Positions 4,042 through 52,893 of a stretch of 64,000 nt of DNA are shown one piece after another. The DNA is from Gammaproteobacteria bacterium (GTDB taxonomy: Bacteria > Pseudomonadota > Gammaproteobacteria > Ga0077554 > Ga007554), in contig JAMPIW010000007.1 in the NCBI GenBank assembly GCA_040183005.1, positions 1,558,188 to 1,622,187 on the forward strand. The letters are read 5' to 3'. Positions within the stretch are counted from its first letter, which is position 1. Each line of letters begins with the position of its first letter. The position numbers and the translations under genes are program-made. Under the pieces are notes generated by a model that saw only the letters and a program-made list of their open reading frames with translations, made no database searches and had not been told where the DNA came from.

Positions 4042-5411
4042 ATGGTCTCCTCCCCCTTCTAAACCAGCGTCGAATGCGCCACGATGGAGTTGTAACAAAC
4101 CATCGAAATGAATAAGGAGAGGAGACCGAGATGAAGATTACAACGATTGGGCTGGATCTGGCAAAGAGCGTGTTTCATGTCGTCTGTTTTGACGAGAAGC
4201 ATAAGGAGGTCAGTAAACGAATGTTGCGGCATAGCCAGGTGAGGGAGTATTTCGCGCAACTCGAGCGGTGTCTTGTGGCGATGGAAGCGTGCGCCGGTGC
4301 ACATTACTGGGGGCGTGAGCTGGAAAAGCTGGGGCACACGGTGAAGCTGATCCCGCCGCAGTTTGTGAAGCCTTATGTGAAGGGCAACAAGAACGACTAC
4401 AACGACGCCCGGGGATGCGGTTTGTCGGCATCAAGACGGTAGAGCAACAGGACATTCAGGCGCTGCACCGGTTGCGTCAGCAACGCGTCAAGGAGAGGAC
4501 CGCGCTCTGCAACCAGTTACGCGCCTTGGTGACGGAGTATGGCATTGTAATGAACAAAGGCGTGGCGACGGTGAGGCGCGGTATCCCCCTGCTGCTGGAG
4601 GATGCCGAGAATGGACTGAGCGACATGTTCCGTGCGCTGCTGGCGCGGGGCTATGAACAGCTTGTTGAACTCGAAGAACACATCGACCCTACACGCGCCA
4701 GGTCGAAGCGCACAGCCGCCAGAACGCGCAAGTCCGCCGCCTGCAAACACTGCCCGGCTACGGTCCGATTGTCGCCAGCGTGTTTGCCAGCCATGTCGGC
4801 GATGGCAGTGCCTACAAATGCGGGCGCGCTGTTTCCGCCTCGCTCGGGCTGGTGCCGCGCCAACACTCCAGCGGCGGCAAGGAGGTGTTGCTGGGGATCA
4901 GCAAACGGGGCGACAAGTACCTGCGCAGTTTGTTGATCCACGGCGCGCGCAGCGTCGTGCTGCATGCCAAGAACAAGGAGGATGCCTTAAGCCGCTGGGT
5001 CAACCGTATCCGTGAGCGGCGCGGCACCAACAAAGCCGCCGTGGCATTGGCCAACAAACTGGCGCGTAGGCCGGCTGGGCGCTGTTGCGCAATGAGACGG
5101 TGTATTGTCCGGCATAGGCCGGAATAGCGTTGCAGTGAGTGTAAGAGTGTAAGAGTGTAAGAGAGCAAAAGAGGTAGACCTGCCGACGATTGCGAAGACA
5201 GTGTAAACATGATGACACCACAGGTAAGACCAGCGTATTGAAAACCTGTTCAACCCAAAGGCTGTTGAACGCCGGTAGGATGATGAGGACGATACGCGCA
5301 GATCACATCGAGGCCAGAGGAGAAACTTCCTCATAAATAGGCCGGATATATGGAAGCAATCCTGTCCCTGTCAGAGTGTGCATGGTGTCTTGCAAAACGG
5401 GAGGAGACCAT
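4042..5411 (+). mobile_element. Decayed IS110-family element (IS1111-like)
   Basis: ATGGTCTCCTCCC (4042-4054) and GGGAGGAGACCAT (5399-5411) are perfect 13-bp inverted repeats bracketing a DEDD-type transposase pseudogene. Inverted repeats near the ends are typical of the IS1111 subgroup. The right non-coding part (about 5128-5398) is long, where IS1111-type elements carry their guide (bridge) RNA; it includes a short GTGTAAGA tandem near 5135-5165. Exact ends beyond the repeats are not defined. Confidence 0.8.
4131..5127 (+). pseudogene. IS110/IS1111-family transposase, two frameshifts
   Basis: The N-terminal RuvC-like DEDD part starts MKITTIGLDLAKSVFHVVC and reaches NDYNDA at about 4410, where an apparent short deletion joins it in another frame to MRFVGIKTVEQQDIQALHR (from 4415). 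A second frame change near 4690 leads to LQTLPGYGPIVASVFASHVG and a C-terminal transposase_20 domain with GLVPRQHSSGGK and the catalytic-serine region. No single frame encodes the whole protein, so it is inactive as written unless in trans. Confidence 0.88.
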
Positions 5412-30820: not shown

Positions 30821-30934
30821 AGATTGTCCATTAGCCCCAGAACCGTTCGCCCTGAGCCTGTCGAAGGGCCGTTCATGGTTCGACAAGTTCACCACGAACG
30901 GCGTTGTGCGCTCTATTTGCCTAATGGACAATCT
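30821..30934. repeat. Nested inverted repeat with a CCGTTCGCCCTGAGC core
   Basis: Outer arms AGATTGTCCATTAG (30821-30834) and CTAATGGACAATCT (30921-30934) are perfect 14-bp complements. Inside lies an imperfect inverted repeat of CCGTTCGCCCTGAGCCTGTC type (30843-30901), a widespread proteobacterial intergenic repeat. A second copy with different outer arms lies at 32647-32765. Confidence 0.85.
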
Positions 30935-32646: not shown

Positions 32647-32765
32647 GGGATTAACCCCAATACTAACCGTTCGCCCTGAGCTTGTCGAAGGGCGGAAAAC
32701 TAGCCATTCATGGTTCGACAGGCTCACCACGAACGGCTTAAGTGAACAGTATTGGGATTAACCCG
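32647..32765. repeat. Second nested inverted repeat with the same core
   Basis: Outer arms CGGGATTAACCCCAATACT (about 32646-32664) and AGTATTGGGATTAACCCG (about 32748-32765) are near-perfect complements. The inner core (32667-32736) is again a CCGTTCGCCCTGAGC / GAACGG repeat. It fills the gap between the convergent ETF-QO and nasA genes and may act in both directions as a terminator. Confidence 0.85.
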
Positions 32766-49759: not shown

Positions 49760-50269
49760 ATGAATAATACATCGCGCTGGCTCGGCTTGTTGATGGTGGT
49801 GCTGGTAAGCGGCTGCGCCGCTAATCCGCCTTTCTCTGCGGAGAAGCTGATGATGGTGGACCGCAGCCTCACTCCGCAGCACGTATCGCAAAACAATATT
49901 GCGCCGAAAACCGCCGTATTATGGGGAGGGGTGATAGTCGACAGCCGCAATATGAACGACTATACCGAGCTGACTGTGCTTGGTTACCCGCTCGACTCCA
50001 GCCAGCGACCTGAAACTGCCAAGACATCCATCGGCCGCTTTCTGGTGCGGCGGCCTGAATACCTGGAACCCCTGATATACTCCCCAAAACGCGAGATCAC
50101 TGTGGTGGGGATGGTAGATGAGGTTACGGAGGGCCGCGTGGGTGACAGCCCCTATCACTACCCGGTCGTAAAAGCAGACAGGATTTACCTCTGGCCGCTC
50201 CGCAGTGCCGGCGCGTCCCGGTTTAGTATCGGAGTCGGGGTCGGGGTCGGGGTCGGGATTATACGTTAG
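49760..50269 (+). CDS. Second Slp-family lipoprotein
   Basis: A 169-residue lipoprotein with lipidation Cys19 (MNNTSRWLGLLMVVLVSGC). VLWGGVIVDSRNMNDYTELT, VLGYPLDSSQRPETAKTSIG and KREITVVGMVDEVTEGRVGD match the preceding Slp protein, so the pair arose by duplication. The C-terminus ends in a GVGVGVGVG run encoded by a hexanucleotide repeat, which may vary in length. Confidence 0.9.
   Translation: MNNTSRWLGLLMVVLVSGCAANPPFSAEKLMMVDRSLTPQHVSQNNIAPKTAVLWGGVIVDSRNMNDYTELTVLGYPLDSSQRPETAKTSIGRFLVRRPEYLEPLIYSPKREITVVGMVDEVTEGRVGDSPYHYPVVKADRIYLWPLRSAGASRFSIGVGVGVGVGIIR
50234..50257 (+). repeat. (GTCGGG)x4 tandem repeat in slp gene end
   Basis: Four exact copies of GTCGGG encode alternating Gly-Val at the C-terminus of the second Slp protein. 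Hexamer slippage would keep the frame, so only tail length would change. Confidence 0.9.
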
Positions 50270-50406
50270 CAATATAAAGCCGCATCCAAGGGTAACACTG
50301 ACTGATTGAGTACCGTCCTCGTCATGCATGTAGTAAACGTATTCCTGCAAGAGATACGCACGCAACACCTCCATTCGTATCTTGGGCGCTTACAAAAGAG
50401 CAAGAA

Positions 50407-50982
50407 ATGAAAGTCAATGATAGCGGTATGCCAGAAGAAGCCTATTGGAATAGCTTGTTTGACATCGAAGGCATAGTTGATTGGCTGGCGATTACAAAAG
50501 ACTCCACGATTGTTGAAATTGGTTGCGGGTATGGCACCTTCACTGTCCCCATAGCAAAGAAATCGGGAGGCAATATCTACGCTTTTGACATTGAGCCATC
50601 AATGATTGAAATCTCGCGGGAGAATGTATACAAATTCGGGCTGTCAAACGTAATATTCAGCTTGCGAGATATTCTTGAGCAGGGAGCAGGCATTGAGTCC
50701 AATAGCGCGGACATGGTTTTGCTTTTTAATATCCTTCACTTCAGTGAAAGAAGAATGCTGCTTGCCGAAGCATCACGCATTCTCAAGAAAGGAGGCGTTG
50801 TGGCAATTATTCATTGGAGAAAGGACATTCCTACTCCGCGTGGCCCGGCTCTTGATCTTCGGCCAGATATAACTCAAATACTAAATGCATGTGAAGGGCT
50901 AAATTTGCGCTATCAAGGCAACAGTAGAATACTGGAGCCGTACCATTGGGGTATTCAATTGGTCAAAGAGGTGTCGGCATGA
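50407..50982 (+). CDS. SAM-dependent class I methyltransferase
   Basis: A 191-residue protein: the SAM-binding motif I is TIVEIGCGYGTFTVPIAKK, followed by GNIYAFDIEPSMIEISRENV, the motif DMVLLFNILHFSERRMLLAEA and ILKKGGVVAIIHWRKD. The substrate is unknown. Codon use and base composition are more AT-rich than the flanking slp and tolC genes, suggesting transfer. The stop overlaps the ATG of a DsrE-like gene, and an attC-like hairpin follows the pair. Confidence 0.85.
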   Translation: MKVNDSGMPEEAYWNSLFDIEGIVDWLAITKDSTIVEIGCGYGTFTVPIAKKSGGNIYAFDIEPSMIEISRENVYKFGLSNVIFSLRDILEQGAGIESNSADMVLLFNILHFSERRMLLAEASRILKKGGVVAIIHWRKDIPTPRGPALDLRPDITQILNACEGLNLRYQGNSRILEPYHWGIQLVKEVSA

Positions 50983-51299
50983 AAATGGGTATCATCATTG
51001 AATCAAATGAACCGGAAAAGGCTTGGAATGCGGTTCGCTTCGGTAACGCCGCCCTGAAGCAAGGGCATGAGGCAAAAATCTTTTTAATGAGTGCCGGCGT
51101 TGAAATAGAAAATATCACTCATGAAAAATACAACGCAAAAGTGCAGATTGAAGAGTTCGCAAAAAATGGCGGGGTCGTTTTGGCTTGCGGAACCTGTCTT
51201 AAATCACGCAATCAAAGTGAAACCGACGTTTGCCCAATATCAACGATGCTTGATTGTGTGAATATGGTTGAGTGGGCTGACAAGGTTATTTCATTTTGA
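50979..51299 (+). CDS. DsrE-family-like small protein
   Basis: A 106-residue protein starting in an ATGA overlap with the methyltransferase gene: MKMGIIIESNEPEKAWNAVR, FGNAALKQGHEAKIFLMSAG and ACGTCLKSRNQSETDVC. The fold pattern and the Cys pair (CGTC) fit the DsrE/YchN family, some of which move sulfur. The partner is not known. AT-rich like the methyltransferase gene. Translational coupling suggests the two act together. Confidence 0.78.
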   Translation: MKMGIIIESNEPEKAWNAVRFGNAALKQGHEAKIFLMSAGVEIENITHEKYNAKVQIEEFAKNGGVVLACGTCLKSRNQSETDVCPISTMLDCVNMVEWADKVISF

Positions 51300-51306
51300 G
51301 CCGCGC

Positions 51307-51367
51307 GCCTAACTCAAGTCGTTGCAGCGGACGCGCTAAAGCGCGCCGCTGAACTCCAACGATATGC
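51307..51367. other. attC-like (integron cassette) recombination hairpin
   Basis: GCCTAAC (51307-51313) fits an attC R'' box. CAGCGG-A-CGCGC and GCGCGCCGCTG form the central stem with an unpaired A and a TAAA loop. GAACTC then leads to AACGATATGC where the R' box GTTRRRY should be. The layout matches attC sites of gene cassettes, but the R' box is degenerate. It follows the methyltransferase/DsrE pair by eight bases. Confidence 0.5.
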
Positions 51368-51456
51368 GCCGACCTTTTGCGTTCGTCCGAAGTTTATTAG
51401 TCCTGCTGTGTGACAAAGTGATCAAGGGATGCGGTGGCATACCCATAAAGGGCACA

Positions 51457-52893
51457 ATGAGGCAAAATCGGGCGAAAGAGCGGCAGCTCCTGCTCGCCAT
51501 ACTCTGTCTGCTAGGCCCGGCGGATGCCCTTCCGGCATCACTATTTCAGAATCTCGATGACCCGTTCTCCACCGGCACGCTGACGAGCGCGAGCCCTGCG
51601 AACCTTGGCGGAACAGAAGGCGGCGAGCTATCCTGCGCCTTCCCTCCCAACGGAAAGAATGCATTGGGATTGGTTGATGTGATCGAGCACGCACTGTGCA
51701 ACAATCCGCAAACCCACCAAGCGTGGGCAACCGCAAAAGTGCAGGCGGCGCAGGTCGGTGTTGCTGAATCAGCCTTTCTTCCCAGCCTGAACCTCACCGG
51801 GCAGACCGCACGCTCCCTCGCCTCTTCCACCAACACGCGCCCAGCCCTGGCTCAAACGCTAATCAGCGCAACGCCTGCAATGAACTATTTGTTGTTCGAT
51901 TTTGGCGGTCGCAATGCCACCCTTGAAAGCGCACGCCAATCGCTTGCCGCTGCGAACTGGACACAAAATGCAACGCTGCAAAATGTGTTTTTTTCCGCAG
52001 TGCAGGATTATTACCTGATGTTCGCAGCGCAAGCCACGGTTATCTCGGCATCAGAGGCGGAAAAATCCAGCTTGGAGGCCATGAACGCCGCCGAGTCGCG
52101 CTACAAGGCGGGCGTCGTGACACCCGCCGACAAATTACAGGCTCAAACTGCTTATGCGCAAGCCAAACTCAATCGCATACAGGCGGAGGGAAACGCGCAA
52201 ATTGCAAAAGGAACCTTGGCGAATGTCATTGGGATAGACCCGGATTATGGGATTGAGATCCTGCCACCACGGATTCAGGAGCCGGATGAAGGCCAGGAAC
52301 AAAAGGTGCGCGAACTGATTACCACCGCAAAACAGCAGCGTCCCGATCTCGCTGCGGCGGAAGCCCAAGTCAATGCTGCAATACAAAACATCAAGTCGAC
52401 GGAAGCAACCGGGAAGCCGATAATTTCCCTGTTCGCCAACTACGGATACAGTCATTCCAACGTCGTCGAGCAACCGCAAACCACGGCACTGGGGGTTTCG
52501 ATCAACGTTCCAATATTCACTGGCTTTAACAACACCTACCGGATTCGTGCGGCCCGTGCGCAAGCAGAGGTTACGGCCGCCCAGCGAGACCAAGTCAAGA
52601 ACCAGGTGGCGCTGGACACATGGAGCGCTTATCACGCGCTCAACACCACGCGGGAGACACTGAGGAGCACCGCTGATCTGGTCGCCAGCGCCACGCAGGC
52701 GGAACGTGTAGCACTCGGCCGATACAAGGCGGGAGCGGGAACCATCCTGGATCTGCTCACTGCACAGGCGAGTCTTGCCAATGCGCGCCTGCAACGCATT
52801 CAGTCGCAATACAATTGGCATGTCGCCAAAGCGAGGCTTGCGCAAGCGATTGGGCGGCTGGATTTTTCCAGCATCGCATCAACCTCACAGTGA
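51457..52893 (+). CDS. TolC-family outer-membrane efflux protein
   Basis: A 478-residue protein from the ATG at 51457, which starts a signal peptide (RQLLLAILCLLGPADALPAS). An earlier in-frame ATG at 51364 lies within the attC-like hairpin and is doubtful. TolC-type repeats are visible: LVDVIEHALCNNPQTHQAWA, FFSAVQDYYLMFAAQ, SRYKAGVVTPADKLQAQTAYAQ and ALGRYKAGAGTILDLLTAQA. It is the outer-membrane channel for the MacA/MacB-type genes that follow on the same strand. Confidence 0.92.
   Translation: MRQNRAKERQLLLAILCLLGPADALPASLFQNLDDPFSTGTLTSASPANLGGTEGGELSCAFPPNGKNALGLVDVIEHALCNNPQTHQAWATAKVQAAQVGVAESAFLPSLNLTGQTARSLASSTNTRPALAQTLISATPAMNYLLFDFGGRNATLESARQSLAAANWTQNATLQNVFFSAVQDYYLMFAAQATVISASEAEKSSLEAMNAAESRYKAGVVTPADKLQAQTAYAQAKLNRIQAEGNAQIAKGTLANVIGIDPDYGIEILPPRIQEPDEGQEQKVRELITTAKQQRPDLAAAEAQVNAAIQNIKSTEATGKPIISLFANYGYSHSNVVEQPQTTALGVSINVPIFTGFNNTYRIRAARAQAEVTAAQRDQVKNQVALDTWSAYHALNTTRETLRSTADLVASATQAERVALGRYKAGAGTILDLLTAQASLANARLQRIQSQYNWHVAKARLAQAIGRLDFSSIASTSQ

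Follow-up and report, generated by a model that had tools for sequence, protein, structure and literature searches.

Downstream of slp2 on the chromosome of a gammaproteobacterium lie two coupled genes, for a methyltransferase and a small DsrE-like protein, that end at a hairpin with the layout of an integron attC site. The locus raises the question of whether the pair is an integron gene cassette and, if it is, how a cassette came to lie where it does. The locus was analysed within a 64-kb stretch of DNA (the window), which is part of contig C7; the only integron integrase (IntI) above the family cut-off is encoded on another contig, C9. The original prediction, made from the letters alone, was that the pair may be a cassette. 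That reading is supported here with a qualification, namely that the cassette is a solitary insertion outside any array. Coordinates are collected in Table 1, where a slash marks the junction between cassette and neighbouring sequence.

Table 1. Features of the cassette and its boundaries (window coordinates)
Feature	Position	Strand	Evidence
Class I SAM-dependent methyltransferase, 191 aa	50407..50982	+	Pfam/NCBIfam; orthologues 68-93% identical in L014-L017; dN/dS
DsrE/DsrF-like protein, 106 aa	50979..51299	+	Pfam DsrE 1.6e-10; alignment; structure model
attC site	51307..51367	+	covariance model R2 28.9 bits, E 1.4e-5; genome-wide E 7e-4; shuffle control
attC boxes	R'' GCCTAAC 51307-51313; L'' GTT 51321-51323; L' AAC 51352-51354; R' G/ATATGC 51361-51367	+	
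Inferred integron gene cassette, 980 bp, GC 45%	50382..51361	+	both edges by comparison with G001, G003, L016
Left boundary, degenerate R' box C/TTGGGC	50381..50387	+	junction alignment with relatives
Right junction: cassette end G51361, target resumes ATATGC	51361..51367	+	identical junction CAACGATATGC in G001; GATAT fits GWTMW

Recognition of the hairpin as an attC site

The hairpin reads GCCTAAC-TCAAGTC-GTTGCAGCGGACGCGCTAAAGCGCGCCGCTGAAC-TCCAAC-GATATGC, and its R'' box starts 7 bases 3' of the stop codon of the DsrE-like gene. The L'' strand begins GTTGCAGC and the L' strand ends GCTGAAC; the stem carries an extrahelical G and an extrahelical A, both on the top strand (one arm), and the R' box is degenerate, agreeing with GTTRRRY at 5 of 7 positions. 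The original prediction had described this layout (R'' GCCTAAC, a stem with an unpaired base, a degenerate R' box) and had named an attC covariance search as a check, and both the search and a shuffle control bear it out. Covariance model R2, trained on 15 short attC sites (from the host array, from relatives and from integron cassettes on plasmids) but not on the window site, scores the hairpin as its top match in the window, where the runner-up reaches 14.6 bits, and gives it 29.0 bits over the whole genome; by the tool's own statement the E-values of R2, like those of the R1 model below, are rough. A separate layout score was 27 for the site and at most 23 among 60 dinucleotide shuffles of the 64-kb window, and the folding z-score of the hairpin was -3.8. 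An Rfam scan of the window at gathering thresholds returned no match.

It is highly improbable that the hairpin is a chance palindrome or a terminator resembling attC and the pair an ordinary chromosomal operon beside slp. Such a reading can draw on the presence of the pair without an attC in one congeneric genome, and on the narrow model R1, trained on 12 short attC sites that all come from the resident array of this genome, which gives the hairpin just 14.2 bits (E 0.84; 0.09 unfiltered, over 20 kb). R1 still ranks the hairpin as the top spot in the window, and the model is under-sensitive for this attC subtype. Against a chance hairpin stand the E-value from the independent model R2, a layout score above that of every shuffle, a canonical GTTAGRC start to the cassette in three relatives and the 12-point drop in GC described below, and a search for a T-run-terminated terminator found no match at the hairpin. 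The hairpin is a real attC.

Recombination of the site in its present sequence is another matter. With DNA parameters and G-T pairs excluded, the predicted bottom-strand fold is a shifted hairpin of -18.7 kcal/mol as opposed to -15.5 kcal/mol for the recombinogenic one, which makes up about 0.7% of the modelled ensemble, and the attC may perhaps be inactive as it stands. The degenerate R' box together with the disfavoured canonical fold suggests that the cassette is nearly immobile, and it is probably barely mobile today.

Boundaries and composition of the cassette

The ATG of the DsrE-like gene (50979) overlaps the end of the methyltransferase gene by 4 bases (ATGA), and the GC content of the cassette is 45.4% versus 56.9% in the flanks, in agreement with the two coupled, AT-rich genes of the original prediction. 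The edges of the cassette were placed by comparison with G001 and G003, two species of the window's genus, and with L016, a locus of a Nitrosomonadaceae metagenome-assembled genome (MAG) from Hainich (G373). About 25 bases 5' of the methyltransferase start, these three carry a canonical GTTAGRC box (GTTAGGC, GTTAGAC and GTTAGGC, respectively). The sequence preceding the methyltransferase reads CTATGTTAGGTATG/TTAGGCGCTTACAAAAGAGCAATAAATG in G001 and CTTTCTGTG/TTAGACGCTTACAAAAGAGC in G003, whereas in L016 the edge, CCCCG/TTAGGCGTATACAG, directly follows a GTCTAAC...GTTAGGC stretch. In the window the edge is GTATC/TTGGGCGCTTACAAAAG and the box is mutated to CTTGGGC, a decayed version of the relatives' canonical core site. 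The right edge, CTGAACTCCAACG/ATATGC, is common to the window and G001. The canonical left boxes of the relatives and this common right edge together define the cassette as 50382-51361. A left boundary at GTTAGCA (50265) was considered and dropped, as the relatives place the canonical box at 50381.

Two features of the sequences around the cassette were also observed. The 3' end of slp2 (window 50235-50266) contains a GTCGGG microrepeat (GVGVGVG) whose length varies among the three congeners. Between the attC and the efflux gene, the leader (window 51397-51483) resembles sequence 5' of a P-type ATPase-like gene in G003 (L047, about 4930-5030), and may be a small repeat or the trace of a rearrangement.

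The resident integron and the origin of the cassette

The genome contains a true integron integrase, for which the original prediction had also proposed a search: IntI on contig C9 scores 490.7 bits (cut-off 265) and is divergent from a large array of about 40 attC sites in 38 kb, which fall into two length classes. IntI was likewise found in 5/5 relatives of the genus and family tested (G001-G005). Run over the whole genome to E 10, model R2 returned no sites other than those of the C9 array, the window site and a weak long-type match at C9:123 kb; in the 3.3-Mb genome, just two attC-like sites lie outside the resident integron, one of which is the window attC. The cassette adjoins neither an intI nor an attI, as it would in a complete integron, and with one attC and no neighbouring attC or intI, it is a SALIN (a single attC lacking an integrase).

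The stretches AAGTCGTTGCAGC and GCCGCTGAACT of the window attC match the attC of the blaIMP-1 cassette exactly and are absent from the resident sites. The window attC, which also scores low with the resident-array model R1, is thus not of the resident subtype, and this suggests that the cassette came from elsewhere.

The second orphan attC (C9:123087-123205; L093) is of the long resident type (CATAAC...GTTAGAG) and lies 84 kb from intI; it is oriented the other way and closely follows a transposase-like ORF. Elsewhere in the window, palindromic repeat copies of the TTCGACAGGCTCACCACGAACGG type occur at 30843-30901 and 32714-32736, and are probably a dispersed REP-like element.

Probable insertion at a secondary site

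Within a cassette array, the last six bases of the R' box belong to the next cassette and read TTRRRY. In both the window and G001 the right end reads ATATGC instead, and the next gene encodes an efflux protein. The GATAT of G/ATATGC is a better fit to GWTMW, the secondary-site consensus for the Tn21 integrase (PMC4618277), than to the canonical GTTRRRY, and cleavage between the G and the A of GAT has been documented at secondary sites (PMC10127599). With GTTAGRC on the left in the relatives and GATAT on the right in two species, the junctions have the form expected of insertion into an attG site. An off-array attC in G001 (C45:51477-51554; L111) has an R' box reading GATAGAG with a GAT core, and is a second candidate for a secondary-site insertion. 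The ATATGC right end in two species, the fit to GWTMW, the documented GAT cleavage and the GATAGAG site of G001 together favour an attG-like insertion over a decayed array end. The reading of the locus as a solitary cassette inserted at a secondary site is given a probability of roughly three in four; both the use of a secondary site, as opposed to a mutated array end, and the integrase that acted have to be inferred.

The GATATGC box could also be derived from a GTTRRRY box by two or more changes, which counts against a secondary site. The pair would then be all that is left of an earlier cassette array (a CALIN) whose other cassettes and GTTRRRY right end have decayed. CALINs that keep a conserved position are common, as in Xanthomonas (PMC12444791), other attC sites lie near the pair in the Hainich relative, and the left edge in G001 carries a doubled GTTAGGTATGTTAGGC, all of which would suit such an array. 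Its remains are not apparent in the window, however, where R2 found no other attC-like site and both cassette edges abut ordinary genes, slp2 upstream and an outer-membrane efflux gene downstream; the right junction, moreover, is identical in two species and agrees with the consensus for secondary sites. An eroded array is accordingly considered unlikely.

In the favoured secondary-site reading, a two-gene cassette with a non-resident attC would have been inserted by an integron integrase at the attG-like sequence G/ATATGC a short way 3' of slp2, in a common ancestor shared by two or more species of the genus and probably by three. The cassette would then have stayed solitary, its attC and left boundary eroding while its genes were retained.

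Persistence and decay in related genomes

The original prediction regarded a pair fixed beside slp in many genomes without an attC as evidence against a cassette. In three congeneric genomes the gene pair is indeed fixed next to slp, but the attC is retained in two of them, whole in the window and half in G001, and the canonical GTTAGRC start in two (G001 and G003). The right junction of G001 is as in the window and the left half of its attC is lost; in G003 no attC is found 3' of the pair, the site having been lost wholly. On this comparison, the cassette occupies one place in at least two species, with its attC and left boundary now eroding. In G005, from a related genus, the gene after slp2 is an ABC-F gene of no relation to the pair, and no empty (uninterrupted) insertion site was found among the genus and family relatives, the locus being occupied in G001 and G003.

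Within the genus, dN/dS is 0.16-0.20 for the methyltransferase and 0.06 for the DsrE-like gene (0.12-0.20 for the methyltransferase over all comparisons), and both cassette genes are kept under purifying selection. At 0.15-0.21, the dS of the cassette genes is roughly half the value for the flanking genes (0.27-0.47); a later exchange of the cassette between lineages could explain this, as could a different mutation or codon bias.

In the Hainich MAG, a 58.6-bit attC lies 1.8 kb upstream of the pair (L016), and the stretch directly upstream of the pair scores just 10.7 bits with R2. Twelve attC matches were found over nine contigs of this MAG (L016, L100-L108), no IntI was found in its 1.9-Mb assembly, and its cassettes seem to be dispersed around the chromosome.

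Predicted roles of the cassette genes

The methyltransferase matches the Pfam families Methyltransf_31/25/11 (E 1e-15 to 1e-17), meets no curated equivalog cut-off in NCBIfam and gave a poor AlphaFold model (pLDDT 49). The DsrE-like protein likewise falls below every NCBIfam cut-off, and a PDB search with its sequence returned no match; its structure model (pLDDT 80) has as top PDB matches the DsrE-family structures 3mc3, 3pnx, 2qs7 and 2hy5. The cysteines C70-G-T-C73, C85 and C93 are invariant in an alignment of nine DsrE-like sequences. Relatives of the methyltransferase were not found in phage collections, nor those of the DsrE-like protein in viral contigs.

Close methyltransferase-DsrE pairs occur in L014-L017, and in L096 and L097 a methyltransferase of 41-43% identity is still beside a DsrE gene, together with a gene for an ArsR-type regulator. 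More widely, the methyltransferase-DsrE neighbourhood recurs in other proteobacteria, on plasmids and in haloarchaea, often together with ArsR or rhodanese genes; in L095-L097, in L043 and on plasmids, the methyltransferase adjoins DsrE or lies close to it, in the company of ArsR/rhodanese. Plasmid clusters of Azotobacter and Azonexus combine methyltransferase, ArsR regulator, DsrE and rhodanese; the Azotobacter cluster adds an MBL-fold (dioxygenase-like) protein, its ArsR regulator carries rhodanese similarity, and its DsrE is only distantly related (26% identity). One DsrE relative, from a haloarchaeon, is divergent from a methyltransferase gene and adjoins genes for a helix-turn-helix protein, a rhodanese and an MFS transporter. 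Among the papers searched, none combined DsrE, a SAM-dependent methyltransferase, ArsR and rhodanese. The pair is a conserved, uncharacterised gene cargo.

The recurring ArsR and rhodanese neighbours favour sulfur chemistry on a thiol or persulfide. The sulfur-bearing or thiol substrate of the original prediction gains from these neighbours, and it continues to be deduced from them. S-methylation of sulfide, a persulfide or a thiol, with the DsrE-like protein as carrier or partner, is the likeliest of the roles considered and is put forward tentatively, at somewhat less than an even chance. The DsrE-like protein would use its conserved cysteines to bind or relay sulfane sulfur, and the methyltransferase would detoxify the sulfide, persulfide or thiol by S-methylation.

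A metalloid (arsenic, selenium or tellurium) could be the substrate of methylation in place of a sulfur compound, and here too the neighbours of relatives are suggestive. A DsrE relative of 58% identity in a Bacteroidetes MAG (L021, 4001-4318) directly follows genes for an ArsR-type regulator, arsM and acr3, and another, in a Bacillota MAG, lies after selD and before a sulfide:quinone-reductase-like gene; both occur without a methyltransferase of the window type. The methyltransferase itself is weakly similar to the ArsM arsenite methyltransferase model, scoring 40.9 bits, below the cut-off of 263. Conserved catalytic cysteines of the ArsM kind, however, were not found across its orthologues and relatives: the sole invariant cysteine in five orthologues, C40, lies in the SAM motif and is replaced in L096 and L097. 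Sulfane sulfur is what the rhodanese-fused regulators and the dioxygenase-like MBL-fold neighbour indicate, and methylation of a metalloid, second in the ranking of roles, is judged improbable. A broader proposal, and a rather doubtful one, sees in the pair a methylation module not described before, for sulfur (or a metalloid), in which the DsrE-like protein would present cysteine-bound sulfur to the methyltransferase; the module would spread as a cassette, which the clade would by habit disperse to secondary sites around the chromosome rather than keep in the array.

Comparison with known systems

Solitary attC elements are known, and SALIN and CALIN are IntegronFinder classes (PMC9024848, PMC12690207). 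The window cassette resembles them in bearing a single attC with no adjacent integrase. It differs in holding two coupled genes and in being traceable at a single locus through two to three species, in which the site has decayed to different degrees. Insertion at secondary or attG sites is also known (Francia 1993; Recchia and Hall 1995; Loot et al. 2024), as cited in PMC10127599, PMC4618277, PMC12444791 and PMC12901181. The GAT-core target outside attI and attC described there has its counterpart in the right junction G/ATAT of the window, which fits GWTMW; unlike the cases set out there, the window insertion is natural, old and fixed in an environmental lineage, with no empty site among relatives.

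With regard to the cargo, MddH and MddM1 are cytoplasmic UbiE/UbiG-type S-methyltransferases of H2S and methanethiol (PMC12904073). Compared by description, they are like the window enzyme in being soluble class I SAM methyltransferases of small size (about 200 aa) with a likely context of sulfur detoxification, whereas the window methyltransferase is paired with DsrE and reaches no curated family cut-off. The DsrE-like protein has the fold of DsrE/TusD/YedF-like sulfurtransferase subunits (3mc3, 3pnx, 2hy5) and their conserved cysteines in a CGTC motif, but belongs to a separate subfamily linked to a methyltransferase and not to DsrF/DsrH or TusB/TusC.

The process is thus a known one, and what is new is another natural example, with a conserved two-gene cargo. 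The locus is apparently a multi-species natural snapshot of a cassette that escaped from an integron into a chromosomal GAT-core site and was then fixed, by the route proposed from laboratory attG experiments. Several relatives carry scattered attC sites, and the clade could serve to gauge how often such domestication of cassettes occurs. The cargo pair, whose neighbours tie it to sulfane sulfur and metalloids, is open to direct assay.
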